From positions 1 through 48,307 of IMG/VR virus record IMGVR_UViG_3300021559_000056: a DNA stretch of 48,307 nt. The stretch is one strand, 5' to 3'. Below the pieces are notes generated by a model, which was not told where the DNA came from, searched no databases, and was given only the letters and a program-made list of their open reading frames with translations. Positions 1-48,307 of the stretch are shown here, one piece after another. Source of the stretch: a virus. Position 1 is the first letter of the stretch; every line of letters starts with the position of its first letter. The position numbers were made by a program, and so were the translations under genes.

Positions 1-74
1 TCATGGCGTTTCTGCATCTTGATTCGGAAGCGTTCGTGCCGCTCGATTTGAGCAAAGATACTTTCGCGCTTCAT
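1..74 (-). CDS. Small zinc-ribbon protein, left copy (5' part only, runs off window start)
   Basis: Starts at ATG 74 in an ATGA overlap with the stop of the gene before it. It reads MKRESIFAQIERHE and continues to the window edge. The same DNA occurs at 47645–47718, where the rest of the gene can be read: it ends at 47542 after a CxxC pair (CFQC), giving a 58-residue basic protein with half a zinc-ribbon. Here it is a separate gene; in the right-hand copy it is in frame with an upstream HNH gene. Function unknown; the name rests only on the cysteine pair. Confidence 0.6.
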   Translation of the reverse strand, partial: MKRESIFAQIERHERFRIKMQKRH

Positions 75-114
75 TTCGTGCCCTCCGTTTCGCGCGGGGC
101 CAGCGCAGCCCGCC
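1..114. repeat. Left half of terminal redundancy, unit 1 (equals 47645–47758)
   Basis: The first 114 bases of the window match 47645–47758 exactly; the two copies differ at the next base (115, t versus c) and are unrelated shortly after. The repeat covers the start of the small zinc-ribbon gene and the last codons of the gene before it. With the second repeat pair (647–757 and 48197–48307) it shows the window wraps round a circular map. Confidence 0.95.
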
Positions 115-379
115 TGTATCGTTCCGTTTCCGAGACCATCTGTTTTGGTTCCTCTCCAACCGCAACTGGAAGTTTGGTCAAGTCGATTCCGCGCGACTCA
201 GCCTCGGCAATCATTTCTGGTAGTTTGAAAGTTTTTATAATTCTCCACGGCATCGTCTCTCCTCCACCGAGCGCATTTGCCCAGAGCATCGCCGTGAAGC
301 ATTCGCTACAACGGATAGCGATAGCTTCTCTAATTTCGGTATCTGTTGGGCGAATCGTTTCTTCAAATAGAATACTCAT
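71..379 (-). CDS. Hypothetical protein, allele-specific gene i
   Basis: 102 residues from ATG 379, chosen because it overlaps the stop of gene h (ATGA) and follows GGGAAATCGA. The protein begins MSILFEETIRPTDTEIREA and contains a C-x(5–15)-type cysteine near residue 25 but no domain I recognise. Its last 14 residues (RAALAPRETEGTK) are encoded in the shared repeat, so they are present as DNA in the right-hand allele but there are read in another frame. The gene body exists only in the left allele. Role unknown; it could be an accessory early gene exchanged between phages. Confidence 0.6.
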   Translation of the reverse strand: MSILFEETIRPTDTEIREAIAIRCSECFTAMLWANALGGGETMPWRIIKTFKLPEMIAEAESRGIDLTKLPVAVGEEPKQMVSETERYRRAALAPRETEGTK

Positions 380-630
380 TCGATTTCCCTTTTCGCGCGT
401 CGCTCTAATGCCTTGACTAAAACCTTCCCCTGCGTCGGATATTGGGAATCGCAAAAATCCGTGAAATCCTCGCTGTTCTCCAGAGAGAACTGAGCCGCGA
501 GCCGCAACGATTCTTTCTCGTCAAAAGACCGGCTTCGCTGTTTCGCTCTAACGTTGCGTGTCACGCGGTCAAAGAACTGCAAGTCGTCAACGAGTGCGTG
601 CAAATGATTCGCGGATTTCTTCGTTCTCAC
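376..630 (-). CDS. Hypothetical protein, allele-specific gene h
   Basis: 84 residues from GTG 630, which overlaps the TGA of the preceding gene (GTGA) and has GAGGAGA about 8 bases upstream, inside the preceding gene's last codons. The product is charged (VRTKKSANHLHALVDDLQFF at the start), helical-looking, without cysteines clustered as zinc ligands and without a recognisable domain. It is present only in the left allele; the right allele has an HNH gene in its place. Confidence 0.6.
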   Translation of the reverse strand: MRTKKSANHLHALVDDLQFFDRVTRNVRAKQRSRSFDEKESLRLAAQFSLENSEDFTDFCDSQYPTQGKVLVKALERRAKREIE

Positions 631-1817
631 TTCTTCGTCTCCTCACGCACCTGTGGTGCAGCTAATGTGAAGCGGCCCTTGAGCGCACGGATTGCTTCGT
701 TAATTTCTACTGTGCCATATTTCTTCCTGAATTCGCGATGACCTTCTTCGCAGGGAGTATTCTTATCAAGCTCCCATTCGTCGTCGGCAATCTTCGCGCA
801 CGCCTCCACAATCTCATCCGCGTTCAATGGATTGGCCTGTGCAAATCCTGCCTCGAATTCCTTTACCCATTCCGCGGCTTCATCGCGCCAGTAGCAGTCG
901 ATTACATGGCCCGCATCGTGAGTATCGTAATCCGTCGCCTTGGACAGATGCGTGATGAATTCACACAAGTTTTCGTGATCGTGTCGAAACTTTAAAGGCG
1001 CGTTCAGTGGACTGGCCGCCGCGAGATTAGGCTGCCATGCCGTCGTGCGATGCTCTGGGTCAGGCGTTGATTGAATGGAATAGCTTCCACCCGGCAATAC
1101 TGTTTCGCCAGCTTCCTGCGCGACCCCGGCCAGCGCCGCGTTATAAAATCTAGCTGCAGCTCCGATGTACGAAATTCCTTTATTCTGAATATCGTGAAAC
1201 TCTCGCAACAGTTCAAGGAACTTGTCGAATTCCACGTGCGGCGGTGCAGCGGGCGCAGCCTTCTCTGCCGCGTCCGTGAACACTACATTGTGGGCTTCTC
1301 TACAAGAGCACTTTGAGCACTTCTTATAATCCAATCCCGGCTGGGTAATTCCCATTGATGTCCTACCCCACCCTTCATGGTCAATGAGTTTATGGCCGCA
1401 ACCGCACACCTGATAGCGTGGCGCAGGAGCCTTCTCTGCGACGGCCCGCGCCTGCAAACAGTTCGGGCAATCACACTGTTCTTCGTCAGCGTACTCAAAG
1501 CAATGACAGAAAACGAGTACCTGTCTGCCTGCCGCATTCTGACTGGTGACTTCGCGGCAACAGCCACACTCGCATGGCGGCGGCTCAGCGACGGAGGCGG
1601 CGAGGGCGGCCATTATTTCGTCCACGTTACTCATGAAAAAGTTTTGCAGGTCTGCTTGCAATCGAGTGAATCTATCGCGGTCCTTCCTATATTCGTGATA
1701 ACCGCTATAACTGTCAGACATCTTCATATTCTTGGAATCTTGCTCTTTCATCTTGGCATACTTCTCTTTTAGTTCGCGCAGCGCAGCTTCCAGCCGTTCC
1801 CGAGTGACCTCAGTCAT
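627..1817 (-). CDS. Cys-rich patchwork early protein (gene g)
   Basis: 396 residues from ATG 1817 in an ATGA overlap. The N-terminus (1–55) is a charged helical segment; residues about 80–175 hold several cysteine pairs (CECGCC, CHCF, CDCPNC, CGCGH, CSKCSC) that look like two or three zinc ribbons; the C-terminal half has helical blocks separated by short Ala/Pro linkers (AAPAAPP, AAASPLNAP, AQANPLNAD, LAAPQV). It reads like a mosaic of phage modules joined at short linkers. The final linker contains the GCACCTGTGGTGC repeat, where the right-hand allele has a 47-codon in-frame insertion. No function can be assigned; DNA or RNA binding is possible. Confidence 0.7.
   Translation of the reverse strand: MTEVTRERLEAALRELKEKYAKMKEQDSKNMKMSDSYSGYHEYRKDRDRFTRLQADLQNFFMSNVDEIMAALAASVAEPPPCECGCCREVTSQNAAGRQVLVFCHCFEYADEEQCDCPNCLQARAVAEKAPAPRYQVCGCGHKLIDHEGWGRTSMGITQPGLDYKKCSKCSCREAHNVVFTDAAEKAAPAAPPHVEFDKFLELLREFHDIQNKGISYIGAAARFYNAALAGVAQEAGETVLPGGSYSIQSTPDPEHRTTAWQPNLAAASPLNAPLKFRHDHENLCEFITHLSKATDYDTHDAGHVIDCYWRDEAAEWVKEFEAGFAQANPLNADEIVEACAKIADDEWELDKNTPCEEGHREFRKKYGTVEINEAIRALKGRFTLAAPQVREETKK
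647..659. repeat. GCACCTGTGGTGC palindromic linker motif, copy 1
   Basis: An imperfectly spaced dyad (GCACC-TGT-GGTGC) that encodes the Ala-Pro-Gln-Val linker of gene g on the minus strand. Further copies lie at 48056–48068 and 48197–48209. The bases on its left match the 48056 copy and the bases on its right match the 48197 copy, as expected for a product of recombination between those two. Confidence 0.85.
647..757. repeat. Right half of terminal redundancy, unit 1 (equals 48197–48307)
   Basis: These 111 bases are identical to the last 111 bases of the window and encode the C-terminal part of gene g up to its LAAPQV linker. The window ends inside the repeat. Together with the 1–114 repeat this brackets a stretch of about 530 bases here, replaced by about 440 different bases in the other copy. 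Confidence 0.95.
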
Positions 1818-3496: not shown

Positions 3497-3723
3497 TTTT
3501 CCTCTCCAACTCCGGGCGCTCGCCGGGCCGCCGCTTTGAACTCTTGCCGCAGAGTCTGCAAACAGTAGTCTCCGTCCGTCGCTCCATTGGCTATCAAATC
3601 CGCCAGCCATTCCGAGTCCAATATTTCGTAAATCTGCCGCAGCGTGAGAACCTTGTCGAGATTCTCTTTGCGCTTCTTCGGCACGTGGCCGAGAACGGGA
3701 AGCTGTGGGAACCTGGTGCTCAT
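3493..3723 (-). CDS. Hypothetical early protein
   Basis: 76 residues from ATG 3723, which overlaps the preceding stop. Begins MSTRFPQLPVLGHVPKKRKE; the middle (LTLRQIYEILDSEWLADLIA) is helical and could be a small helix-turn-helix, but I do not recognise a family. No strong ribosome site, so translation is probably coupled. Confidence 0.6.
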   Translation of the reverse strand: MSTRFPQLPVLGHVPKKRKENLDKVLTLRQIYEILDSEWLADLIANGATDGDYCLQTLRQEFKAAARRAPGVGEEK

Positions 3724-4523: not shown

Positions 4524-4696
4524 GAAGTAGCCTTTCTTTCAAGCAGCTTCGTTCCATGATATTGCGCTCCATGAATGCAGTTCATCTGCTCGCCGGACAT
4601 GAACCAAGACCACACTTCTTGCGCCGCATCGCCTGTTTGGTATTCCACTGTGCCGTCCTCGTACTCAATCTCGATGCGAACGCATTTCCTGTCCAT
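4520..4696 (-). CDS. Small hypothetical protein
   Basis: 58 residues from ATG 4696, preceded by AAAGGAGGAAGTG, one of the best ribosome sites in the window. Begins MDRKCVRIEIEYEDGTVEY, a beta-strand-rich start, and contains a single Trp pair (VWSWF). No family recognised. Confidence 0.6.
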   Translation of the reverse strand: MDRKCVRIEIEYEDGTVEYQTGDAAQEVWSWFMSGEQMNCIHGAQYHGTKLLERKATS

Positions 4697-4812
4697 CACT
4701 TCCTCCTTTGAACTACCGGCCCCCGCTCTCGCTTAGTCAGTGGCCGCAAATCGCCTTCGTCGTACCAAACGTAGAACGTCAGGCCGATAGCTTTGAGTAG
4801 GCGTTTAGTCAC
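4696..4812 (-). CDS. Very small basic protein (38 residues)
   Basis: GTG 4812 overlaps the stop of the replication-initiator-like gene and its own stop precedes the next ATG, so it is translationally coupled. Reads VTKRLLKAIGLTFYVWYDEG and ends in a Lys/Arg-rich tail containing the next gene's ribosome site. Function unknown. Confidence 0.45.
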   Translation of the reverse strand: MTKRLLKAIGLTFYVWYDEGDLRPLTKRERGPVVQRRK

Positions 4813-5540: not shown

Positions 5541-6173
5541 CTACTTTTGTGCTTCGTAAATGGCTGCCGTGCTGCCCCGCTCGCAGATTCTCTCGGCGTA
5601 ATCAGCTACGCAGTTGGCTAGTTCAGCAGGGATAACCGCGGCGTCGCTAGCGTTCTTGTATGGCTTAGAATTCCTTACTTCCCTGATATTTCCATGTTTC
5701 TTTGCTCGTGCATATTCACCACCAGCAAGCGTTATCAGTTTATTCCTGACTCGCGCAGGGATAAGTGGTGGAACAGCATTACCCCATAGGAAGTATGGTC
5801 CAGAATGGTGAACAGCTGCTCCTACGAATTGCTGCGCCGATCGAACATTCTCCATCACGTAAGGAACTCCCGATTGCTCAAAAATGCTCCGAGTGTGGTT
5901 GAAAAGTCGTATCCCCATTTCAGGGTACTTGGGTTTTGTAAAGAAGTGCTTCATTCCATGCACAGAAAATTCCTCACAGGGACTCGAAGCCCAGGCAAAA
6001 TGAAACCTCTTCACGTAATCGCTTGTTAGATTGAGAACATCCCAAATCCACAGTTCGCAGTTTGCCGGCGGTTCGCAATATTTCTTCAAGTCAACTCCTA
6101 CTACGGAATGTCCTCGCGCTCCGAACGCTCCACCGATTCCCCACTTCCCGCAGAATAGGTCAAGAACTCGCAC
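5541..6173 (-). CDS. C5-cytosine DNA methyltransferase
   Basis: 210 residues from GTG 6173, preceded by GAGGCGGTG. Motif I reads VLDLFCGKWGIGGAF near the N-terminus, motif IV SSPCEEFS at about residue 63 carries the catalytic cysteine, and motif VI MENV lies near residue 107, so this belongs to the Dcm/C5 family. At 210 residues it is about half the usual length and lacks an obvious large target-recognition region, as in short phage orphan methyltransferases. No restriction partner is adjacent. Likely role: modifying phage DNA against host restriction. Its last residues resemble the end of the upstream RMF-like gene. Confidence 0.85.
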   Translation of the reverse strand: MRVLDLFCGKWGIGGAFGARGHSVVGVDLKKYCEPPANCELWIWDVLNLTSDYVKRFHFAWASSPCEEFSVHGMKHFFTKPKYPEMGIRLFNHTRSIFEQSGVPYVMENVRSAQQFVGAAVHHSGPYFLWGNAVPPLIPARVRNKLITLAGGEYARAKKHGNIREVRNSKPYKNASDAAVIPAELANCVADYAERICERGSTAAIYEAQK

Positions 6174-6666: not shown

Positions 6667-6809
6667 CGTACACGCTCCAACTTGCATCCACACAAGTGAC
6701 AGCGTTTTCTCTTCGGCTCGTAATACCAAGTATCAGAACAGCCTGTGCATTCCATCAAGTAGAACGTGAATCTGCCGCGCCGAACAATCAAGGCTTCTCG
6801 TACGCTCAT
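6663..6809 (-). CDS. Small zinc-ribbon protein
   Basis: 48 residues from ATG 6809, preceded by GAGGATACA. Cysteine pairs CTGC near residue 20 and CHLC near residue 36 form a complete CxxC...CxxC ribbon in a basic protein. The start region is a near copy of the one at 7181. Because of an eight-base C run at 6824–6831 the upstream gene is also in frame with it. Confidence 0.65.
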   Translation of the reverse strand: MSVREALIVRRGRFTFYLMECTGCSDTWYYEPKRKRCHLCGCKLERVR

Positions 6810-6837
6810 TGTATCCTCACCATCCCCCCCCACCGTC
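6804..6837. repeat. Duplicated start-site context, copy 1
   Basis: About 34 bases nearly identical to 7176–7208. Each copy holds the end of one gene, the ribosome site GAGGATACA and the ATGAGCG start of a zinc-ribbon gene. This copy has a run of eight C where the other has CCCTCCC, a one-base length difference. Confidence 0.8.
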
Positions 6838-7025: not shown

Positions 7026-7181
7026 TTAACGCTTCCCCCCACCGCCCTTCTGTTTAAGTTTTGGCCCCACAGGTCCACCGCAGCGGCCGCACGGTTTACG
7101 CTCCGCAAGAGATGCTTCGCTGCGATAGCCTTTGAAAGTGCAGACCAAACACTTCACGCGATATTTCATGCGGTCGCTCAT
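7026..7181 (-). CDS. Small zinc-ribbon protein
   Basis: 51 residues from ATG 7181 (ATGA overlap, GAGGATACA ribosome site). Cysteine pairs CLVC and CGRC, about 20 residues apart, make a complete zinc ribbon, followed by a Gly/Lys-rich tail. Function unknown; nucleic-acid binding is plausible from the basic charge. Confidence 0.65.
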   Translation of the reverse strand: MSDRMKYRVKCLVCTFKGYRSEASLAERKPCGRCGGPVGPKLKQKGGGGKR

Positions 7182-7208
7182 TGTATCCTCGCCATCCCTC
7201 CCACTGTC
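7176..7208. repeat. Duplicated start-site context, copy 2
   Basis: Counterpart of 6804–6837. Here the sequence CCCTCCC keeps the upstream gene in a frame that stops at 7178, giving the usual ATGA overlap. Confidence 0.8.
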
Positions 7209-38111: not shown

Positions 38112-39440
38112 CTAGTAGCCGCCCTGGACGCCCGATGCCGGAACGTTCAAACCTGTAATCACAGCGTTTGCGTTCGGGAATCGGCAGCCGAGGTTCCCCC
38201 GGAATTCAAGGTATGCCTCGAAAATATCGGCATATCCGCCTGTGGTTGTCGGGATGCGGTTGAGAATCGAGCCAGTGCGGTCGTCAAAGCTCAGTTTCCG
38301 CGCCGTGGTCTTGAGCATCGAGTCCTTGTTGATGAAGTACAAAGTATCGCGCGGGGCGTCGGTGTCGATGACCCACGGGATGCCTTCCCACTCGAATGCG
38401 GTGAAACCCAAGTCCATCTTCATGGCGGTGCCGTTGAACTGCTTCATCGTCCAGCCCATTTCGGCGTAGGCGTGAAGTTGTGCGCCATGCGACCAGATGC
38501 GGAGTTTCGAGAGGTCTACTGCGCCGCGCGCCTGCTGAATCAGCCAGATCGGGCGGCGCAGATGGTCGCGCGTGAGCGGCGGGGTTCCAGTAAGCGGAAT
38601 GACGTTCGCGTTGTATTGCGGGTTGTTGACGCGGTTGATGTTCTGGAAGTTCGTGGCGAATGTGCCGTTGTCCACGATGACCTTTAGTCCGGCCATTACC
38701 TTGTTGAACGAATCCGCCGAACCTGCACCGGAACCAGCCGCCGAAACGATAGCGTCGCCGACTGCCGTCGCCGTGGCCGATGATGCGGGGTTCATGGTCA
38801 GGGTTACCGCGCCGCCAGCCTGGGCGTTCGTGATGGTGCCAGCCGCGCCAAGCGTGTTGTTGACTTGCAGGATTTGCGCCGAGAACTTTACCGGCGCGAC
38901 TGTCCCTGTATAGACGTTGATGAATTGGCCGGGTCGGAGGTAGCGCGCGCCGTCGCCCGAACCCGTCACGTCCAGCGTCCAGGTCGCCACGGTCGAAGGC
39001 GTGACGATGGCCCCGACTTTCCCGATGATGCCCGTTCCGTCGAGGAAGCTGTAGGCGTTGAGTTCCTTGATGGCCTGCACCACACCGTTGCGGACGTTGA
39101 CCGACAGCGACTTCGCGTAGTTCGTCGCGTCTCCGCCGCCGCCCGCATCGAGCGCCGCACCCGTCCAGCGGATAGGCTTCACGTAGGAGTAGAACCCTAC
39201 GATGGCGCGGTTGAACTTTTCGGCATCTCCGGTCGGCAGGTTGCCGCCATCGGCGTACCACATATGCACGCCGTTCGGTGCCATATGCACGGGGATTTCA
39301 AGGCCACGGTTAGAAATCATCGTGCCATCGCCCTCGAACACATCGTTCCAGAGCACGGCGGCGGTATTGAACTGCTTTTCAATTCTGGGGTTGAAGACGT
39401 TTTTGAAGATTGGGTCTGCTGCTGAAAGGTCGAATGCCAT
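38112..39440 (-). CDS. Major capsid protein
   Basis: 442 residues from ATG 39440. Located after the portal and the scaffold-like gene, with the length and composition of an HK97-fold capsid protein: N-arm (ADPIFKNVFNPRIEKQFNTA), a Gly-rich loop (DAGGGGDATNYAKSLSVNV), and the C-terminal segment YLEFRGNLGCRFPNANAVIT. No protease gene is visible nearby, so the scaffold may be removed without cleavage or by an unrecognised enzyme. Confidence 0.8.
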   Translation of the reverse strand: MAFDLSAADPIFKNVFNPRIEKQFNTAAVLWNDVFEGDGTMISNRGLEIPVHMAPNGVHMWYADGGNLPTGDAEKFNRAIVGFYSYVKPIRWTGAALDAGGGGDATNYAKSLSVNVRNGVVQAIKELNAYSFLDGTGIIGKVGAIVTPSTVATWTLDVTGSGDGARYLRPGQFINVYTGTVAPVKFSAQILQVNNTLGAAGTITNAQAGGAVTLTMNPASSATATAVGDAIVSAAGSGAGSADSFNKVMAGLKVIVDNGTFATNFQNINRVNNPQYNANVIPLTGTPPLTRDHLRRPIWLIQQARGAVDLSKLRIWSHGAQLHAYAEMGWTMKQFNGTAMKMDLGFTAFEWEGIPWVIDTDAPRDTLYFINKDSMLKTTARKLSFDDRTGSILNRIPTTTGGYADIFEAYLEFRGNLGCRFPNANAVITGLNVPASGVQGGY

Positions 39441-39465
39441 TTGGCACCCCTACGGGTGCCGCTGC

Positions 39466-40383
39466 TTACTTACGGGCCACGGCTGCGTTTACTTCACCTG
39501 TGGAAATGTTCCCCCAAATTGGGTCTTCCTGTCTATCGGATGCCACAGGAGTTCCACCAGCAGGTTCGGCAGCGGGGATGATTTGCTTCGTCCCGTTTTT
39601 CTCAATGTCTTCGCGCTTGGTGCGCTCTGAATTCGCAGCGGCTTTGGTTTCAGCAGACGCCTTTTTCATCGCTTCGGCGTAGTATTTCGGCACGTCCACG
39701 TAGACGCCTTTAGCCACGCGGCTGCGCGCGGCCTCGTCCTTCCAGATGAGTTCCTGAGCTTTCAAGCGAATATAATCTTTGTCTTTCTCAGACGTTCCTT
39801 CTGGAAGTTTGTCGGCCAGCCGGTCAAGGGAGCTGTTGAATCCCGTGGTGATTTTTTCTTGGGCCTTCGACTGGTCTTCCATTTGGAAACGCTGCATGAG
39901 GCTATTGAGGGTTTGCTTGATGCTCGCTAGCTCGGAATCGTTCTGCGAAGGTGCCGAACCGGGAGTCCTGCTCGTACTCCCCGGCTGCGCTGTGCCGTTT
40001 TTCACTTCTTCGGGCAACTGATACCACCAACGGTTGGAGAATCGCTCCAACAATTCAGCGTGCAATTTAGGGTCTGTCCTCTGGATTTGGTCCATGAACA
40101 AGTCTGGGTTCGTGCGAAGTATCTGGTCGAGATTCGCAAGCGATTGCTTCGCCTCGATGAATTCTCGAGCGTTCTGAGGCGTGATACCCAGTTCACTAAA
40201 CTGCCGCAGTGATTCAGCGTCCGCTTCGGTGAATTGAGGAATTTCTACTTTCGCAGGTTCGGCAGGGGGAGTTACTTGCGCCGGAACTGCGGGAGTGGCT
40301 TCTGGCGTGGCCTGCGATTCAGCGGGCTTCGCAGGTGTTGCAGGAGCCAATTCCTCCCAACTTACGTTTGCAGGTGATGCCAT
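39466..40383 (-). CDS. Scaffolding-like protein
   Basis: 305 residues from ATG 40383. Pro/Ala-rich N-terminus (about 1–50), then charged helices with coiled-coil pattern and a Lys-rich C-terminal third. Between portal and capsid, as scaffold genes are. Pelham-like protease residues are not seen. Confidence 0.65.
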   Translation of the reverse strand: MASPANVSWEELAPATPAKPAESQATPEATPAVPAQVTPPAEPAKVEIPQFTEADAESLRQFSELGITPQNAREFIEAKQSLANLDQILRTNPDLFMDQIQRTDPKLHAELLERFSNRWWYQLPEEVKNGTAQPGSTSRTPGSAPSQNDSELASIKQTLNSLMQRFQMEDQSKAQEKITTGFNSSLDRLADKLPEGTSEKDKDYIRLKAQELIWKDEAARSRVAKGVYVDVPKYYAEAMKKASAETKAAANSERTKREDIEKNGTKQIIPAAEPAGGTPVASDRQEDPIWGNISTGEVNAAVARK

Positions 40384-40426
40384 ACGAAGGGAATGTAAGC
40401 GCTATCTTCTGGCGTGTCAAGCGCGA

Positions 40427-42814
40427 TTATGGATTTCTGCGGCGTTGCTGCGCGGAGTGGGACTGTCCTTGCTTTCCGACATGGTGCTGGTTCCCTCCCG
40501 AGGGTTGCGACTGGTGTGGCTTCGCAGCTTGACCTTTAACTCCCCGGTCGTGTCGGAACTGCGGATTGTTGTTCGGATTCTCCGCGCCCTGCTGCGGTTG
40601 GCCGTTCTGCTGTTGAGTTCCCGGCCCGACTTCCTGGGCGTGTCCCTGCATCGCCGATTCCATCGCCATTGAGTTCGACTGGTTCCCGACGTGCAATAGC
40701 GCGTGGTCGTAAATCGTAGCCTGCGTCTGCGGCGGGAGCGTGGCCCATTCATCGGAATTCATGTACTTCTGCAACACTCCGAGATGCACCATGTCGTTGT
40801 CACGGATGAGTTGCGGCTGAATCTGCTGGCCCGATTGTTTCATCGACTCGATTTCTTTCCACTGGCTCTTGACCTGCGGCGCAGTCTCGTCAAGTTCTTC
40901 GGGCAACTGGTAGAGTTCGAGAACTTTGTTCTTCACCACCTGCGGCAACTGCGGATTGAAAGCCCCGATGGCGATCGCCTGATTGAACGATTGCTGCTGG
41001 AGCGGGTCAAGCGGAATGATGCGGGCCTTCACGCGCACGCTGTCCATCTTAATCATCTCGCCGCGCAGTTTCTTGAATTGCCACTGCCTGTCCATGCCCA
41101 TCGTGACTTGCACGCGCTCGTCCACCCAGTTCTCCGAATCAATCTTGAGCATCTGCATGGCCCAGGTTTCGTTCGCTTCCTTGTACATGAGTTGCAGCGG
41201 GCCAAGCGTCTGCTGGTTCTGGGTAATGGCCTGTTGCTGGCCGCCCATCGTATTGATTCCTTCTTCGTGCATCCCGATAGAGGAAGGCGAAACGCCGGAG
41301 TGGAACTGCATATTCTGTTTGATGGTCTCGCGCTGACGCCACACATCGGTAGAAAGTTGCCCTCCCGGAAACCACTTTGCCGCCTGGTCGATTGGTTTCC
41401 CTCCAAGATTCTTGAGGGCAATCATAATTCCGGCATCGTTTAGCGTGAGATTTGAGTCCATGCGCTGCTTGTCGTACATCATTACCGGCATGGAGTTGAA
41501 GTCGATATGCCGCAGAATCATGCGGTCGATTTCATCGAGCTTCAGTTGCTCGGGCACAAGGTCGTCGTCTCCATCGGCCCAGAATCTTCCCGGCACGTGG
41601 ATGTGTTTGAACTGCACCCAGTGGTCATCGAGGGATTCTGAGCGGCTCGTTAGTAAGCAATCGTCGGCAATCTCCGCATACATCCCCTCCGTGAATTCCG
41701 CTTTTAGTTCCTTGTCGAAAGCGTACTGGGCCTGACGCAGCCAGCCCTGAATCAGCGGAACTTTTGCGGGCGCTACGGCGCGTTCGTACCAGGCGGCGTA
41801 TTGTGTAGGGTCGCTGGGTAGGTCGGGAATTGCTTGCTGGTACATGATCCCGATGTCCTCAGATGCTTCAACAGTGTCTCCTGGCATTTTATCTGCGCCA
41901 AAGTCGGCTTTGGGGTATTGAGCTGCCAGTGCCACCTTATCAACCATTCGGACTCGGAGCAGCCCCGGCGCGTGCCACAAGTCCTTAGCCGACGAGCGGA
42001 CGTAGACTTCGAACGGGCCGACAACTTCCGACATCTCTTGGCCGCGCGGGAACCTGGTTTGCCCTTTGACTTGCGGGAGCATTCCTTTCTGCGCGGGGAT
42101 GTTGAGCGGCTGCTGGTCGGGGTTTTCCTGCGGGCCGCAGTTCGGGCAGACATGATTCTCTCCTTGCCCGGACGCACCGCAAACCGGGCAATACCACTGG
42201 GCCTGCTCTAGGTCTACTTCGACATCCTCGTAAACAGGGACGGTGACGAATCCGTATCGCGGGTCAGTAGCGTAGTAACTGTACCGAAACGAGTTCCCGA
42301 ATATCCGAAGATTGATAGCTTCACAAGCTCGCATCCCGTCGTATCCGACGTTTTCCTTATTGATTTCAAGCGCTGCGCGTGCCGCCTCAGCAACCGCTTG
42401 AGACTCGGGGTCAGGAGAGCTTGGCTGCGAAATGAATTCCGGCGCGGTCTGCACATAGAGGGCGGCTCCGTAACGAATGTAGCTGCGGTAATCATTCGAG
42501 GGGAACGCATACTCGCTGGCGTTCTGGAGAAGCGCGTTGATGTCGATGTCGGAGACAATGTTGAGATCGTGGTAGCCCATAAAAAGAAGGATGTTGCGGA
42601 ACCACTTGCGGTGGAACTGAAGTTTCTCGTACTGAAGTTCGTAGTAGTGGCGCTTCATCAGCCATTTGATTCTTTCTTGCTTGGATAGCTCAACTGGATA
42701 CTCGGGCAGGACAGGCCGGGGTTTGCTGGTGGCAACGTCGCGCGTGGGCTTCTTCGCGCCCTTGAACATATCGCGGAGATTCGATGCGACGCCGGAGATG
42801 AGTCCTTCAGCCAT
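40427..42814 (-). CDS. Portal protein with inserted zinc ribbon
   Basis: 795 residues from ATG 42814 (shared TAATG with the gene before). Gene order, length and the helical N-terminal region (ELSKQERIKWLMKRHYYELQ) identify a large podovirus-type portal. Near residues 205–232 lies a zinc ribbon (CPVCGASG...CPNCG) inserted into the body. The last 100 residues are Gln/Gly/Pro-rich with several His. The portal forms the ring through which DNA is packaged and ejected. Confidence 0.75.
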   Translation of the reverse strand: MAEGLISGVASNLRDMFKGAKKPTRDVATSKPRPVLPEYPVELSKQERIKWLMKRHYYELQYEKLQFHRKWFRNILLFMGYHDLNIVSDIDINALLQNASEYAFPSNDYRSYIRYGAALYVQTAPEFISQPSSPDPESQAVAEAARAALEINKENVGYDGMRACEAINLRIFGNSFRYSYYATDPRYGFVTVPVYEDVEVDLEQAQWYCPVCGASGQGENHVCPNCGPQENPDQQPLNIPAQKGMLPQVKGQTRFPRGQEMSEVVGPFEVYVRSSAKDLWHAPGLLRVRMVDKVALAAQYPKADFGADKMPGDTVEASEDIGIMYQQAIPDLPSDPTQYAAWYERAVAPAKVPLIQGWLRQAQYAFDKELKAEFTEGMYAEIADDCLLTSRSESLDDHWVQFKHIHVPGRFWADGDDDLVPEQLKLDEIDRMILRHIDFNSMPVMMYDKQRMDSNLTLNDAGIMIALKNLGGKPIDQAAKWFPGGQLSTDVWRQRETIKQNMQFHSGVSPSSIGMHEEGINTMGGQQQAITQNQQTLGPLQLMYKEANETWAMQMLKIDSENWVDERVQVTMGMDRQWQFKKLRGEMIKMDSVRVKARIIPLDPLQQQSFNQAIAIGAFNPQLPQVVKNKVLELYQLPEELDETAPQVKSQWKEIESMKQSGQQIQPQLIRDNDMVHLGVLQKYMNSDEWATLPPQTQATIYDHALLHVGNQSNSMAMESAMQGHAQEVGPGTQQQNGQPQQGAENPNNNPQFRHDRGVKGQAAKPHQSQPSGGNQHHVGKQGQSHSAQQRRRNP

Positions 42815-43065
42815 TACCTGATTTCAATATCGCTTTGCGGCACCCGAAAATGCACCGCGCCTGCTTGCGCGAGGAGTTGCGCTTTGGACTTCACTTCCTT
42901 CGTCACCGTTGATGGCTCTGCATTAGTAGAAGTTTCTTCAGTCAACGGCTCATAGCCTGCCTTGCTCATCAGCCGGTCAAGCAGAGCCGTTACCGTCTTT
43001 TGGTGCTGCCACTCGCGCGTTAGTAGCGTCGCGCAGAGCACGAGCAATAGGAGCCATGTTTGCAA
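42814..43065 (-). CDS. Single-span membrane protein, overlapping gene
   Basis: 83 residues from TTG 43065, chosen because GGGAGGAAATCC lies right upstream. Residues 2–16 (QTWLLLLVLCATLLT) are one transmembrane segment; the rest is charged and polar. Its first 30 codons lie inside the preceding gene in another frame. Function unknown; an early-late regulator or exclusion peptide would be guesses. Confidence 0.5.
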   Translation of the reverse strand: MQTWLLLLVLCATLLTREWQHQKTVTALLDRLMSKAGYEPLTEETSTNAEPSTVTKEVKSKAQLLAQAGAVHFRVPQSDIEIR

Positions 43066-43150
43066 GGATTTCCTCCCGCGTGAATTCTTCCCACTGGTCC
43101 TGCTGGCCGAACTTTCCGGGTGCTTCGAGTGGAATTTCTGGTTTAGGCAT
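42977..43150 (-). CDS. Small charged hypothetical protein
   Basis: 57 residues from ATG 43150. Reads MPKPEIPLEAPGKFGQQDQW and then a charged helix. Its last third overlaps the transmembrane gene in another frame. No family recognised. Confidence 0.55.
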   Translation of the reverse strand: MPKPEIPLEAPGKFGQQDQWEEFTREEILANMAPIARALRDATNARVAAPKDGNGSA

Positions 43151-43331
43151 GGTGAGCCTTGCACTGCTTGCGCCCACGGTCGAACTCGGTCAGTTCTTCC
43201 CGAGGCACAACCTGTCCGCACTTCTCGCAGCGCCCCATCTGCCAGCTATAGAATTCGCGCAGCGGAATCTTCGGTACGTTGCGAAGTTCTTCCGCTTCCA
43301 TTTGAATCTGTTTTACCAGCGCGTCGGTCAT
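43143..43331 (-). CDS. Small zinc-ribbon-like protein
   Basis: 62 residues from ATG 43331. Contains CEKC near residue 35 and CKAHH at the end, a Cys/His set that could hold one zinc. Overlaps the end of the upstream ORF by about 85 bases in another frame. Function unknown. Confidence 0.6.
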   Translation of the reverse strand: MTDALVKQIQMEAEELRNVPKIPLREFYSWQMGRCEKCGQVVPREELTEFDRGRKQCKAHHA

Positions 43332-43440
43332 AACCGTCTATCCACTCCCGGACTTTCTGCGTGACTTCATCGCTAAGTTCGTCCCTGCGTATTACTTCTC
43401 CGCATCGCAATCGGCGAACGACTTCATCGAAGTCAATCAC
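43246..43440 (-). CDS. Small hypothetical protein with doubtful C-terminus
   Basis: 64 residues from GTG 43440 (GTGA overlap). Residues 1–38 (VIDFDEVVRRLRCGEVIRRD and onward) look gene-like and helical; the remainder is Ser/Arg-rich and overlaps the next gene. As with the ORF at 4287, the true end may have been lost. Function unknown. Confidence 0.5.
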   Translation of the reverse strand: MIDFDEVVRRLRCGEVIRRDELSDEVTQKVREWIDGYDRRAGKTDSNGSGRTSQRTEDSAARIL

Positions 43441-43577
43441 TTGGCCTTCATGGAAATCTTCGCTTTGACTTTGGCCTTCACGTCCACACCTTTCTTGCCC
43501 TTCTGCTTGGCGGAGAATTTCTGCGCGTGCTGCATCAGCGGTTTCAAAATAGCGCCCATCGAGGAAAGGTTAGCCAT
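43437..43577 (-). CDS. Small basic protein
   Basis: 46 residues from ATG 43577. Begins MANLSSMGAILKPLMQHAQK, then a strongly Lys-rich tail (KQKGKKGVDVKAKVKAKIS). Overlaps the preceding stop. May bind DNA or the terminase complex; unproven. Confidence 0.55.
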   Translation of the reverse strand: MANLSSMGAILKPLMQHAQKFSAKQKGKKGVDVKAKVKAKISMKAK

Positions 43578-44187
43578 TCTTTAACTCCGTTTGGGCGGTG
43601 CGCCAATCGACTTCATCGTCGTCGCCCCATGCCGTGCAGTTATCGCCAGCGGCTACCATCTTCTGCAAAACTCTGCAAAACCCTGTAGCTGATTCCCATT
43701 TTGGTTTCATGCTTTCAGTGATGTAGTGGTCGCAGTCGTCACCACCTGAAACGCCACCACAATTTGCCCCTCCGTAATCTTGCCCCACTTCGGGGGCGTT
43801 AATCCACACAAGGTCAAGATAATCGGGGTCGTCGTGTGCGAAGTATTTTCCTTCACTTGGCTCTCCGAAATCGTGCATTCCGCAGCATGGCCAGTACTCT
43901 ATCGCTTTCCCATCTTCTTTGCCACGTGTGAATTTTTTGACGAGCACTTCCGGGCCGATGCGCTTACACGTCATCGCCTTCGGATTCATAGTCATGCAGT
44001 TGTAGCAGGAGGAAGGTTGGTCGTGCATGGACTCGGCGGTGACGAATAGAACTTGTCCTGGCTGAAGGATTGGTACGCCGTGAAAATCGGGCTGCGAGAA
44101 AACGCGGCGCATGGCGTTGATTTTAGGAACTTGCGCTTCGCTGTATAAGGGGAATCCGCCACGCTCGACTTCGAGGTCTCGGCTCAT
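43570..44187 (-). CDS. Cys-rich protein after terminase
   Basis: 205 residues from ATG 44187 (overlaps terminase stop). Contains many cysteines (CYNCMT, CK, CC, CGG, CDH, CR, CTAW), enough for two or three metal sites, and an acidic C-terminus. Acts presumably with packaging or head genes by position. No family recognised. Confidence 0.6.
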   Translation of the reverse strand: MSRDLEVERGGFPLYSEAQVPKINAMRRVFSQPDFHGVPILQPGQVLFVTAESMHDQPSSCYNCMTMNPKAMTCKRIGPEVLVKKFTRGKEDGKAIEYWPCCGMHDFGEPSEGKYFAHDDPDYLDLVWINAPEVGQDYGGANCGGVSGGDDCDHYITESMKPKWESATGFCRVLQKMVAAGDNCTAWGDDDEVDWRTAQTELKNG

Positions 44188-45719
44188 CTTCGCGGCAACG
44201 ATAACATACGATTGCGCGTGCGGAAAGGAGAACGTACAAAGGGACTCTGTTTCTGCTTTTCTTCGTCCTGCTTGTGAATCGCGGCGCGGTGCCAGTAAAG
44301 TCTGGAATGCGGGGTCAGTTCCTTCGACTCGTAATTCTTCGGGAGCAAAAGGCGCGCCGGTTCGGGCCGGAACGTGTGGACCGCATACCTATCCGAATCG
44401 GGTGAGTGCGAGCAGGCGTGGTCGGGTTCTTCGGTAAACTCATCCTGCCGGTTCTTCGCCCATTTGTAGGACTGATACTCGCGAATCGAGTTCACGCACT
44501 TCGAGGAAAAGTACATGCGCGGGCCGGGGTACACCGGGTCCGTTTTGCCCATCGACTTGAAGAAGTGCGGAACCTTTTCGCTCGGGTGCAGGTACGACTG
44601 CATCTTGAAGATTCCGGGCTTCACTTCCTTGATGGCCGGGGTGCCGCCAATCTCAAATTCTCCAAGTTCCAGGGCTGCCTGCTGGTTCTCATAGTCGTAG
44701 GCGAGGCCGTCGAGCGTGCGGCCTTCCATGATGCGGTGATATTCCGCTGCGATGTCGGCCACTAGAATCCCCGCCTGATAAATTTCATCGAACTTGAAGA
44801 GAATTCCCGTCTGGGGCATGACGGCCCAGAACCCGATGGCCCAGGGATCAACGCCGCCGATGTCGATACCCACAATCACCGGCCAATCAAGAGGAGGACT
44901 CCAATCCGCCTCTTCCCAGACGTGCATATCTACGGAGAAATCCTTGTAAATCTGGTCTCCAAACTCGGCAAAAGACCCTCTAATGAAGCGCTCGGACCAG
45001 TCAGCCGGGTAATTGTCGAGCATGTTCTGGATATAGTCAGGCGGAAGGTTTTTGGCGTTGTCGGTCGTCGCCACCGTTAGCCCTATGTTCTTTTTCCACG
45101 ATTCCTTGCGCTTGGGATTGAAAAACATGTCCCAATTCCAGTCCTGCCCGTTGGGATTGAGTAGCAAACGACCGAAATGAGCGAGCGGGTCGGTCTGTCG
45201 GCGCAACCGGCCAATCAAAGTCAGGAAAGTTCCCTTCTGGGTTTCTTCCGACTGGTCTACCAGGAAGCTCGTCAGGTTCATCGAGCGGATATGGCCCTTT
45301 ACGTCGGCATCGGCAATGTCCAGGTGCTTGAACCAAGTCACCGAACCATTCTTCCAGATGAGTTTACCCTTCGTTTCAACCCAGTCCTCAACCCAGACGC
45401 GCGGCGCAAGGCTCAGAAACGTGCTTCTGGTAGTCGTCTCAAGGGCTGGCCGGTTAAGTCTTCCTACGAGGTGTTCTGAACGGGGAATTCGGTTCGCCAG
45501 CAGGACACTCCAAACGCATCCAGTCACGCTTTTCGACGCGCCGAACCCGCCCGATAGTGCTGCGAGCTTGGCGTCCGAGTAAAGGAACGCCTTCTGGATG
45601 CTCATGTCGATGGCAGGGCAGGCTTGAATGCGGTGCAGGGCTAAGTTGAGGTCAAGTTCTCCCGGTACGACACCCTCAACGACTTCGAGCTTCTCACCGC
45701 AGAGGGTGCAGGGAGGCAT
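44184..45719 (-). CDS. terL: Terminase large subunit
   Basis: 511 residues from ATG 45719. Begins MPPCTLCGEKLE with a short CxxC. Walker A is GGFGASKS at 57–64, the Walker B-like strand SFLVDQSEE lies near 150, and the nuclease centre has GIDIGGVDP near 284, YDYEN further on and HSPDSDRY near 440. It pumps DNA through the portal and cuts concatemers at the end. The direction of transcription places it first among head genes, as in most tailed phages. Confidence 0.9.
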   Translation of the reverse strand: MPPCTLCGEKLEVVEGVVPGELDLNLALHRIQACPAIDMSIQKAFLYSDAKLAALSGGFGASKSVTGCVWSVLLANRIPRSEHLVGRLNRPALETTTRSTFLSLAPRVWVEDWVETKGKLIWKNGSVTWFKHLDIADADVKGHIRSMNLTSFLVDQSEETQKGTFLTLIGRLRRQTDPLAHFGRLLLNPNGQDWNWDMFFNPKRKESWKKNIGLTVATTDNAKNLPPDYIQNMLDNYPADWSERFIRGSFAEFGDQIYKDFSVDMHVWEEADWSPPLDWPVIVGIDIGGVDPWAIGFWAVMPQTGILFKFDEIYQAGILVADIAAEYHRIMEGRTLDGLAYDYENQQAALELGEFEIGGTPAIKEVKPGIFKMQSYLHPSEKVPHFFKSMGKTDPVYPGPRMYFSSKCVNSIREYQSYKWAKNRQDEFTEEPDHACSHSPDSDRYAVHTFRPEPARLLLPKNYESKELTPHSRLYWHRAAIHKQDEEKQKQSPFVRSPFRTRNRMLSLPRR

Positions 45720-45720
45720 T

Positions 45721-45858
45721 TCAGATGTATTTCTTCGTCGGCCACGCCAGTATCCCGAGCACAATCACGAACACCAAGAACACCGATGCCTCATGGAATA
45801 GAAAAACAGCCATTGCCAGCACCGCCGCCATGAATAGCACTGCCAGAAGTCTACCCAT
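45721..45858 (-). CDS. Mini membrane protein upstream of terminase
   Basis: 45 residues from ATG 45858 with CGGGAGAATTTGA upstream. Two hydrophobic segments (LLAVLFMAAVLAMAVFLF and VFLVFVIVLGILAW) form a membrane hairpin with a short basic tail. It overlaps the end of the ORF before. Function unknown; could be a holin-like or superinfection peptide. Confidence 0.5.
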   Translation of the reverse strand: MGRLLAVLFMAAVLAMAVFLFHEASVFLVFVIVLGILAWPTKKYI

Positions 45859-46726
45859 TCAAATTCTCCCGTATCACCTCAAACACCGCTGCCGTCTTCT
45901 TGTTCTTCCGGTTCCGCCACGCCAGAGTCGTCGCGTTCTGCAACTCCCCCCTGCACCTGTCGCACCTCAACTGCTTCCAGTTCCGCTTCTGAAATATCTC
46001 CCCGCACTCCGCCCGCCCCTGCTCCTCGTACTTCCACCCCTCACACTTTCCGACCGTACTTCGCGGTGTACTGCCGGAGCGCGTCCCGGATAAGCTCCGA
46101 GACTGGGTTCGCTTTGTCCGCGAGCGCGCAGAACTCTTTCCACTCGTCGGCTGCAACTCTGAAGCAGATGCGAATGCTGCTCTGTCCTGCCTTGATTCTT
46201 CGGAACACCCACCACCATCCTGTGAGACGGACTGAAACGAAGTGTCGCACACTTCCTTGGAATTGCAAGGAAAATCTATGGGGTGAGGTGTATCAGTTAA
46301 GACGGCGGGCCGGATTTCGGCTGCTTCCCCTGCCGTGGGGTCTGGGCCTGGCAGAACAGCAAGTGCAGTGTTATCTGACGGCTGCCGATAATCAACAATA
46401 TGTTGCTCGGAAACTCCATCTCTAATAGCGACAGCAACTTGCGCATTGACAGGTAGGCCAGTCAGGGCCAGTGTTATGTTGCTAGGCAGATGCTTGGAGT
46501 CAGCCAACAACGCCCGTTTCTTCTCTTCCTTAGCCTCATCCTTCCAATAGCTTACGACATATTCCTGAAATACACGGTGAGCGGCGATGCGTGTGCTTTC
46601 ATCTTTGGCGTCGGTCGTAAGCTTAACCAAATGGTTCAGTGAACGTCGATACTTACGAAGGGCTTCCGTTTCAATCAACTCTAGCTTATTAGCACGGGAA
46701 GCGAGGTTGAGAGGAGTTCTGGGCAT
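45851..46726 (-). CDS. Putative small-terminase-position ORF with nested gene
   Basis: 291 codons from ATG 46726. Residues about 1–85 (LASRANKLELIETEALRKYR and onward) look like a genuine helical domain; the last 60 residues hold a CECG/CDRC-type Cys set (AECGE, CDRCRGE) and look real as well. The middle (about 165–230) is Ser/Arg-rich and has the look of an out-of-frame shadow; in it lies the RHH gene in another frame. It precedes terminase, where TerS is expected. It may be one gene or a fusion of two. Confidence 0.45.
   Translation of the reverse strand: MPRTPLNLASRANKLELIETEALRKYRRSLNHLVKLTTDAKDESTRIAAHRVFQEYVVSYWKDEAKEEKKRALLADSKHLPSNITLALTGLPVNAQVAVAIRDGVSEQHIVDYRQPSDNTALAVLPGPDPTAGEAAEIRPAVLTDTPHPIDFPCNSKEVCDTSFQSVSQDGGGCSEESRQDRAAFASASELQPTSGKSSARSRTKRTQSRSLSGTRSGSTPRSTVGKCEGWKYEEQGRAECGEIFQKRNWKQLRCDRCRGELQNATTLAWRNRKNKKTAAVFEVIRENLNG
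46041..46208 (-). CDS. Ribbon-helix-helix DNA-binding protein
   Basis: 55 residues from GTG 46208 (ACAGGATGGTGG upstream). VFRRIKAGQSSIRICFRVAA is the start; IRICFRV is the beta strand, and the helices continue DEWKEFCALADK and PVSELIRDALRQYT, which fit the CopG/MetJ-type RHH pattern. It is encoded entirely inside the 291-codon ORF in another frame. An RHH could be a transcription regulator or a small terminase-like DNA recogniser. Confidence 0.6.
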   Translation of the reverse strand: MFRRIKAGQSSIRICFRVAADEWKEFCALADKANPVSELIRDALRQYTAKYGRKV

Positions 46727-46968: not shown

Positions 46969-47043
46969 CTAAACGTGTGCCGTCTGCGCTCCCGCACTCC
47001 CGCAGCACGCTCCCAGCAGCAAACACAAAAGAGTGAGTTTCAT
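46969..47043 (-). CDS. Orphan signal peptide ORF (24 residues)
   Basis: ATG 47043 overlaps the stop of the gene before. Reads MKLTLLCLLLGACCGSAGAQ then TAHV and stop: a complete signal sequence with almost no mature part. The start context GCGCCC-ATG-AAACT is shared with the gene at 47387. It may be a relic of a deleted secreted protein or a membrane peptide. Likely last gene of the early operon. Confidence 0.35.
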   Translation of the reverse strand: MKLTLLCLLLGACCGSAGAQTAHV

Positions 47044-47387
47044 GGGCGCACCTCGCAAAGCTTTTTATCTAGCACGCGCATCTCTACCGCGTCCATTGCG
47101 GCAAGGTCTGTTTCAAATTCTTCGCTCATTCCAAAATCCGTGACCCCATGCACCCAATCATTACGACCCATATTTGCATAGCCCCACCAACTTTCCCCGA
47201 TGCCTTCAACGCGGCCAACGATTAAACCGCTTGAATTACAAACGATGTCAAATTCCGGATAACTGCCGATGCTCTTATCCGCCCAGTGTGCATAGCTCAT
47301 GTGAGAGGCAGGGCGCGGAAACTTCAGGTCATGGTCAGCGCAAGCCCCACAGCACAGCAAGCAGATCGCTAGGGCCAAAAGTTTCAT
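47040..47387 (-). CDS. Putative secreted/lipoprotein of early operon
   Basis: 115 residues from ATG 47387. MKLLALAICLLCCGACADHD is a signal with possible lipobox (CCGAC). The mature part holds two Cys and a Trp-rich segment (ESWWGYANMGRNDWVHGV). An early secreted phage protein may alter the envelope or block superinfection; unproven. Confidence 0.55.
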   Translation of the reverse strand: MKLLALAICLLCCGACADHDLKFPRPASHMSYAHWADKSIGSYPEFDIVCNSSGLIVGRVEGIGESWWGYANMGRNDWVHGVTDFGMSEEFETDLAAMDAVEMRVLDKKLCEVRP

Positions 47388-47545
47388 GGGCGCTCCTTGT
47401 GTTGCGTCGTAGGGACATTCTTACCCGCGAGAGGCCCTCTGTATATACGGCACGGCTGCCCGATGCCAGCCCCGCACTTCGGGCATGGATTCGCTCGCAT
47501 TAGAGAACGCTTGACTGCTTGTTCTTGTTTGGTGAGGCCGTTCAT
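47384..47545 (-). CDS. Small zinc-finger protein
   Basis: 53 residues from ATG 47545, with GGAGGAAGGACG upstream and an ATGA overlap. Contains CPKCGAGIGQPCR, the short zinc-finger pattern CPxCGAxxGxPC found in phages and actinobacteria. Nucleic-acid binding is plausible; role unknown. Confidence 0.65.
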   Translation of the reverse strand: MNGLTKQEQAVKRSLMRANPCPKCGAGIGQPCRIYRGPLAGKNVPTTQHKERP

Positions 47546-48036
47546 CGTCCTTCCTCCGTTTCGCGCGCCCGCCGCTCACGTCCGATTTCTATCCGGCATT
47601 GAAAGCAGGTTTTCGGTCGCCACCTACCGCTCGCGATGTGTTTATCATGGCGTTTCTGCATCTTGATTCGGAAGCGTTCGTGCCGCTCGATTTGAGCAAA
47701 GATACTTTCGCGCTTCATTTCGTGCCCTCCGTTTCGCGCGGGGCCAGCGCAGCCCGCCCGGCAAACAATATCTTCAGCAAGATGACAGGAGCGGCACAAC
47801 CAAACAACCTCGAACCTTTTGGAGTAGTCTTTGTGGTGAGCTTCCGGCTTGCAGACAAGTCCGCATTTCGTGCAATGGTCGGGACGAAACATCCCGCGAT
47901 AACGTATTGCTTTGTATATCGCACGGCGCGCCCTATGCGCTTCACGGTTTCTTACTTTCTCATTCCTGCGATGAATCGCTATTCTTTCAGCGTTAGACTT
48001 CCTCCAAGCTCGGTTGTATTCCGTTGTGTTCATCAC
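47542..48036 (-). CDS. HNH endonuclease, fused in frame to zinc-ribbon gene (right allele)
   Basis: 164 residues from GTG 48036 (ATG 48033 is next to it). CTKCG at 55–59, HHKDY at 67–71 and CRSCH at 81–85 are the HNH/treble-clef core of small phage HNH proteins. After residue 90 the frame passes through the shared repeat in a frame different from the left allele and enters the zinc-ribbon gene at its Met (position 47718, residue 107). Either a fusion protein or two products are made. Homing endonuclease activity is expected from the family. Confidence 0.7.
   Translation of the reverse strand: MMNTTEYNRAWRKSNAERIAIHRRNEKVRNREAHRARRAIYKAIRYRGMFRPDHCTKCGLVCKPEAHHKDYSKRFEVVWLCRSCHLAEDIVCRAGCAGPARNGGHEMKRESIFAQIERHERFRIKMQKRHDKHIASGRWRPKTCFQCRIEIGRERRARETEEGR
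47645..47758. repeat. Left half of terminal redundancy, unit 2 (equals 1–114)
   Basis: Exact copy of positions 1–114. Left of it (47542–47644) lies the rest of the small zinc-ribbon gene that is cut off at the window start. Right of it the sequence changes to the HNH cassette. Confidence 0.95.
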
Positions 48037-48307
48037 GGTTTAGAACTCTCCTCACGCACCTGTGGTGCAGCCCGCTCTGGTAAGCGCATTCTAGTTCGCA
48101 CGAACTCGATAATCTCCTCTCCCTCTTGATTCGTAAACTCCATGCCAATCATTGACTCAACTGCGCGCCGCACGATGTTCTGCGTTCGTATCTTGGGCAC
48201 CTGTGGTGCAGCTAATGTGAAGCGGCCCTTGAGCGCACGGATTGCTTCGTTAATTTCTACTGTGCCATATTTCTTCCTGAATTCGCGATGACCTTCTTCG
48301 CAGGGAG
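48033..48307 (-). CDS. Gene g, right allele (3' part only, longer C-terminus)
   Basis: The window ends inside the gene. In frame it reads PCEEGHREFRKKYGTVEINE and continues as in the left copy up to LAAPQV, then has 47 extra codons (PKIRTQNIVRRAVESMIGME and onward) before a second AAPQV and the end REESSKP. The added segment is a charged helix-loop, flanked by the 13-base repeat. This is the longer allele of the gene at 627–1817. Confidence 0.75.
   Translation of the reverse strand, partial: PCEEGHREFRKKYGTVEINEAIRALKGRFTLAAPQVPKIRTQNIVRRAVESMIGMEFTNQEGEEIIEFVRTRMRLPERAAPQVREESSKP
48056..48068. repeat. GCACCTGTGGTGC motif, copy 2
   Basis: Second copy of the linker dyad. The 25 bases 48047–48071 match 638–662 exactly, including the GAGGAG ribosome site for the next gene. 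It lies 141 bases (47 codons) from copy 3. Confidence 0.85.
48197..48209. repeat. GCACCTGTGGTGC motif, copy 3
   Basis: Third copy. Its right flank matches the bases right of copy 1 (to 757). Copies 2 and 3 are direct repeats bounding the 141-base insert. Confidence 0.85.
48197..48307. repeat. Right half of terminal redundancy, unit 2 (equals 647–757)
   Basis: Exact copy of positions 647–757, running to the last base of the window. Reading on from 48307 to 758 closes the circle. Confidence 0.95.

Follow-up and report, generated by a model that had tools for sequence, protein, structure and literature searches.

A modular accessory gene locus of a phage, apparently reshuffled at short conserved linkers, with an HNH endonuclease gene in one of its states

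Background

Conserved boundary sequences at the junctions of phage modules are an old idea, cited in PMC3029335 and debated in PMC3945230; according to PMC3029335, such sequences are missing from most mosaic joints. The locus described here comes from a viral contig of 48,307 nucleotides (hereafter the window, which is the complete IMG/VR record IMGVR_UViG_3300021559_000056) and resembles this model in that short conserved sequences at module edges could let homologous recombination swap cassettes. It differs in that the seams are dense, lie mostly within one gene, and recur in a phage whose DNA shows no similarity to the window elsewhere.

Several other described systems show partial likeness. 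In lambda and Stx phages, the mosaic Ea22 proteins combine shared segments with unrelated C-terminal domains, and their variants have a 16-aa segment in common (PMC10834534). The protein discussed here is likewise an early accessory phage protein with a mosaic of shared and unrelated segments, but no sequence relationship to Ea22 was found (the Ead/Ea22 Pfam models do not match the gene of the window or those of the contigs L005 and L015, introduced below), and unrelated modules accompany at least five recurring linkers. Domain mosaicism, in which fragments common to otherwise unrelated phage proteins reflect recent exchange, was surveyed by pair comparisons in which the aligned fragments had a minimum length of 50 aa (PMC10684548). 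The shared fragments in the present case, in contrast, are coding linkers of only about 7–17 aa. In T4-type mobile regulatory cassettes (promoter/stem-loop), repeated short elements between small genes promote shuffling; the linkers are repeated short elements too, but they are protein-coding, and no hairpin is consistently present in them. Homing endonucleases have been described at the edges of segments exchanged between phages (PMC10448857), and at this locus a nuclease gene is located inside an exchanged segment, adjoining its border; however, other states of the locus contain no nuclease gene, and the activity of the HNH protein is predicted. Finally, strain differences between variant phages produce bubbles in assembly graphs, where contigs follow one arm or stop (PMC10563150), in contrast to the window, in which both arms are retained in one contig. 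Thus, bubbles from variant phages are ordinary and boundary-sequence mosaicism is already known; what is new is its linker-dense, within-gene form.

Two cassettes at the ends of one contig

Positions 1–114 and 47645–47758 of the window (shared flank D1) are 100% identical, and so are positions 647–757 and 48197–48307 (shared flank D2, the second copy of which is the contig end). These two pairs are the only repeats longer than 100 bp in the window, and identity of 114 and 111 bases by chance is out of the question. Both repeats had been reported in a preceding sequence-only reading and were recovered without a mismatch, and the unit lengths given there, 47,644 bp (1–47644) and 47,550 bp (758–48307), are correct. 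The flanks, cassettes, linkers and borders described in this work, as well as the modular gene, the HNH open reading frame (ORF) and the terminase gene, are all on the minus strand. D1 consists of linker C6 (113–82 in the first copy, 47726–47757 in the second) and 81 bp of a neighbouring 58-aa gene; D2 contains the greater part of linker C5 plus 71 bp of the modular gene. On either side, each cassette is therefore joined to flank that lies outside the linker (81 bp past C6 and 71 bp past C5), which indicates that linker sharing alone did not make the joins.

The two contig ends have no direct match to each other; both stop about 110 nt beyond the point where the two alternative arms converge, so that on either side of the arms the end sequences overlap with the interior of the contig. 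In the relative L005, sequence collinear with the window extends from 39084–46408 through the contig-end join to 3275–2662 and contains a single copy of the locus, i.e. the ends of the window adjoin in a relative. The proposal that the contig passes a single time round a circular or permuted genome, entering by one bubble arm and leaving by the other, is thus strongly supported, and by implication cassettes A and B would coexist in one sample. One point against the best explanation is that the end overlaps are unequal (114 compared to 111 nt): a simple de Bruijn bubble is expected to leave overlaps of the same size, a single word length, on either side.

Cassette A (115–646, 532 bp) encompasses the C-terminal tail of the modular gene (REETKK and the stop codon), an 84-aa gene (376–630) and a 127-aa gene (71–454), the last residues of which are encoded by linker C6. 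Residues 34–116 of the 127-aa protein match a protein of the 595-kb uncultured phage LR756511 with 36% identity, and the match ends approximately where C6 starts. An AlphaFold model of this protein was unusable (mean pLDDT 40).

Cassette B (47759–48196, 438 bp) comprises a 47-codon module that extends the modular gene, a copy of the C5 core, and an HNH domain. No local alignment between A and B scores above shuffled controls (score 23, with shuffled sequences reaching 30). The earlier statement that the DNA between the repeats differs completely is nevertheless not quite correct: inside B lies an extra copy of the left-hand border linker, where 48047–48071 is identical to 638–662 at 25/25 positions, in addition to the copy at 48197. 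In this state the modular gene, the 3' end of which is located at 48033–48305 (AAPQVPKIRTQ followed, further on, by ERAAPQVREESSKP and the stop codon), has gained a 141-bp module that ends in the second C5 core copy.

The HNH endonuclease ORF of cassette B (47542–48036) encodes 164 aa, with the HNH domain in residues 1–92 and C6 from residue 93 onwards. The Pfam HNH model does not match the cassette B protein. However, residues 5–86 match PHROG 2340, “endonuclease”, with an E-value of 7.9e-16, and the ORF is 40% identical to a protein of E. coli phage mEp013 in an alignment that covers the HNH domain; the presence of an HNH gene in only one of the two states, which had been claimed from the sequence, is upheld by these two matches. 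The ORF has no stop codon of its own and reads in frame across linker C6 into the downstream 58-aa gene. At this joint the HNH gene is out of phase with the usual reading frame of C6, which indicates that the frame is not always kept. The conserved part of the HNH protein, like that of the 127-aa protein, ends at about the start of C6, as if the natural ends of both proteins had been replaced by the linker. Relatives of the HNH fusion were sought in viral contigs and none was found. In L005, a different HNH gene (L005:150-908) weakly matches the Pfam HNH model as well as a guided IscB model, the latter in the HNH region only; in connection with this gene, short stretches of DNA near 3514–3531 and 4696–4719 of the window are common with L005.

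The modular gene and its linkers

The modular accessory gene (627–1817) encodes a Cys-rich, zinc-ribbon-like protein of 396 aa in which short linkers alternate with unrelated modules. The protein belongs to no Pfam or NCBIfam family and has no convincing PHROG match, and a PADLOC search for known anti-phage defence proteins produced no match. The gene was not found in bacterial genomes or GenBank phages, nor were the exact D2 flank and the 396-aa gene found in other viral contigs.

Linker C1 (1774–1817, MTEVTRERLEAALRE) is the start of the gene, followed by C2 (1418–1453, ARAVAEKAPAP) and C3 (1109–1141, AALAGVAQEA). C2 is identical in L015 at 36/36 positions, and C3 at 30/30 in L015 and 29/29 in L005; in a scan of IMG/VR the C3 core occurs in L005, L015 and L034 only. 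C4 is split in the window into a first half (999–1019, AASPLNA, 21/21 in both L015 and L005) and a second half (805–837, NPLNADEIV). In L015 the linker is one piece, with the halves overlapping, and in the window a module separates them, with TGAACGCG at both edges. In two state changes a piece of a linker is duplicated at the edge of the module (C5 in cassette B and C4 in the window).

The border of all cassettes is linker C5 (636–686, GCGCTCAAGGGCCGCTTCACATTAGCTGCACCACAGGTGCGTGAGGAGACG, translated as ALKGRFTLAAPQVREET), which is identical at 51/51 positions to L015:3273-3323 and at 41/41 to L005:2530-2570. Linker C6 (GCGGGCTGCGCTGGCCCCGCGCGAAACGGAGG) combines the end of one gene with the ribosome-binding site of the next and recurs in L005:2669-2701 and L015:3422-3453. 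A second border of this gene-end/ribosome-binding-site type (47548–47577, RRARETEEGR and the stop codon) is 94% identical over 36 bp to L005:2995-3030, and a further C6-like copy is located at L005:2816-2837. The coding phase of linkers C2, C3, C4 and C5 is unchanged between the window and L015 despite differing module lengths, and for C3–C5 it is kept in L005 as well.

Several candidate features were rejected. Folding energies of the linkers as potential hairpins (attC-like or stem-loop) mostly track GC content, and only C2 stands out; a C2-type internal duplication in the 396-aa gene is not above codon-shuffled controls. Additional IMG/VR matches to the 16-bp C6 core (L013-L014 and L016-L033) and to the 17-bp C5 core (L035 and L036) have unrelated contexts and were taken as chance, as was specifically the C6-core match in L028, where the border peptide is out of the frame of the gene.

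Relatives and linker sharing

A search started with the terminase large subunit (44184–45764; PHROG 2, E-value 2.2e-21) identifies three relatives, L005 (99%), L006 (100%) and a 40% relative, L007. L006 is 99.7% identical to the window across 23 kb but ends before the locus. L005, which comes from another sample, is 98.3–98.5% identical over the packaging/head region and contains, between the same two linkers C5 and C6, a third cassette of 98 bp, so that these linkers flank three different, unrelated cassettes. Across the accessory zone L005 and the window have 332 of 3,084 bp in common, in blocks of 21–75 bp, compared with 97.7% and 98.3% identity in the blocks on either side; shared short blocks number 10 at the locus, compared with 0 or 1 in each of 21 stretches of the same phage that served as controls. 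The cassette site is therefore a single slot of a broader mosaic zone.

Scanning for the border cores revealed L015, a part of a 43.5 kb contig (whole record G004), and L034, the same phage from another sample. Those structural proteins of this phage that match the window at all are about 20–33% identical. At the DNA level, BLAST comparison of G004 with the window yields matches at the accessory locus only, namely linkers of 25–51 bp with 93–100% identity: C1 (44 bp, 95.5%), C2 (36 bp, 100%), C3 (30 bp, 100%), C4 (33 bp, 94%), C5 (51 bp, 100%), C6 (32 bp, 97%) and one further match of 30 bp (93%). The DNA between the linkers consists of unrelated, frame-preserving modules. In contrast to these modules, the third cassette is 99.4% identical between L015 and L005 over 171 bp including the linkers, and given that the two phages are otherwise unlike, it has moved between such phages recently. 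The L034 contig, 100% identical to that of L015 for 20 kb, breaks off a single base before C6 is complete (L034:1-31), which suggests that sequences branch there in a further sample.

These comparisons modify the notion of a polymorphic site with two alleles. The two arms are present in the window, but a third cassette occupies the same borders in two other phages, the borders themselves are linkers common with an unrelated phage, and the cassette is a single slot of a longer locus.

Mechanism and alternative explanations

The best reading of these observations is a modular accessory gene locus that is reshuffled at conserved linkers and contains an HNH gene in one state. Taken together, a circular genome entered via cassette A and left via cassette B, a variable slot between C5 and C6, and modules exchanged by recombination in the linkers is an explanation that can be held with good confidence. 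Under this scheme the slot would be part of an accessory locus in which linkers alternate with exchangeable modules, and homologous recombination between co-infecting genomes, crossing over in the linkers, would substitute, add or remove modules; the conserved coding phase of the linkers within the modular gene would keep most products in frame. That exchange proceeds by recombination at the linkers is suggested by the arrangement of the sequences. Rad52-like phage recombinases tolerate divergence sufficiently (PMC3945230). The early genes searched include no recognisable phage recombinase gene, so that the enzyme could be that of the host or an unrecognised one. The HNH nuclease may aid the spread of cassette B, in line with the location of nuclease genes at exchange borders (PMC10448857). 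Apart from the window, the linkers are present in L005 and the L015/L034 phage only, and this counts against the best explanation, as do the lack of a recognised recombinase gene and the out-of-phase HNH joint of cassette B.

The form of the deposited contig, whose ends lack a direct mutual match, is what would be expected of a true duplication, i.e. a linear genome with the locus at both ends and copies diverged in the middle. This explanation is very improbable: L005 runs straight across the join with a single copy of the locus, replication keeps direct terminal repeats identical whereas the middle parts here are unrelated, and ends about 110 nt past the divergence points fit an assembly limit better than biology. 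It also appears quite unlikely that the contig is a chimeric assembly in which a cassette from another phage was joined at shared linkers. Since the linkers occur in an unrelated phage, mis-joins are possible in principle, but the flanks of 81 bp on the C6 side and 71 bp on the C5 side are 100% identical and are absent from that phage, and a different cassette derived from a close strain would still represent a real allele.

Two further explanations concern the origin of the pattern itself. An HNH homing endonuclease could drive the polymorphism by cutting HNH-less alleles, into which B would then be copied, with the linkers serving as mere homology arms; this would account for an HNH domain in one state only and agrees with the nuclease genes documented at phage exchange borders (PMC10448857). 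It is nevertheless doubtful, given that the state seen in L005 and L015 and the module changes at C2–C3, C3–C4 and C4–C5 involve no HNH gene at the locus, so that HNH cannot explain the general pattern, and that the HNH ORF has no normal end. Selection might, alternatively, have preserved the linker peptides as functional motifs of an old shared gene while the modules merely diverged, as would be compatible with coding, in-frame linkers. This is scarcely credible in view of linker DNA that is 93–100% identical, silent sites included, in phages with structural proteins about 20–33% identical, and of a C5–C6 module that is nearly identical in L005 and L015 when the other modules are unrelated; near-identical linkers and C5–C6 module in unlike phages call for recent exchange, and no relatives came to light in which these linker peptides are kept while their silent sites are saturated. 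The stronger version of linker recombination, in which the linkers are dedicated exchange sites and the combination of constant linkers with variable modules is a diversity generator that acts by combinatorial reshuffling within and between phage species, is an unlikely extension.

The reshuffling of modules at linkers bears on the old dispute over the origin of phage mosaicism, which is ascribed either to recombination at short boundaries that genomes share or to random joining (PMC3945230, PMC3029335). Here the boundaries are plain, repeated and present also in a phage that is otherwise unrelated, and one exchange seems to have been caught inside a population. The named sequences C1–C6, together with a slot that has at least three states, provide material for testing this question.

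Other genes of the window

The head and packaging genes (38112–45764) are distant from those of GenBank phages (the best terminase match is ~25% identical), which places the phage in a group that is poorly described. A search for the host via the major head protein in bacterial genomes gave no match, and no tRNA genes were found. A DNA methyltransferase-like ORF (5541–6173, PHROG 363) matches only a part of the family profile. A 28-nt repeat (93% identity) at 6803–6830 and 7175–7202 resembles a ribosome-binding site with a start codon in front of two neighbouring genes. In a lipoprotein-like gene (47040–47387), 29 bp of signal-peptide DNA (47347–47375) are common with L005:3314-3342 (96.6% identity), and the mature proteins look unrelated, so that this gene seems to contain another within-gene mosaic joint.
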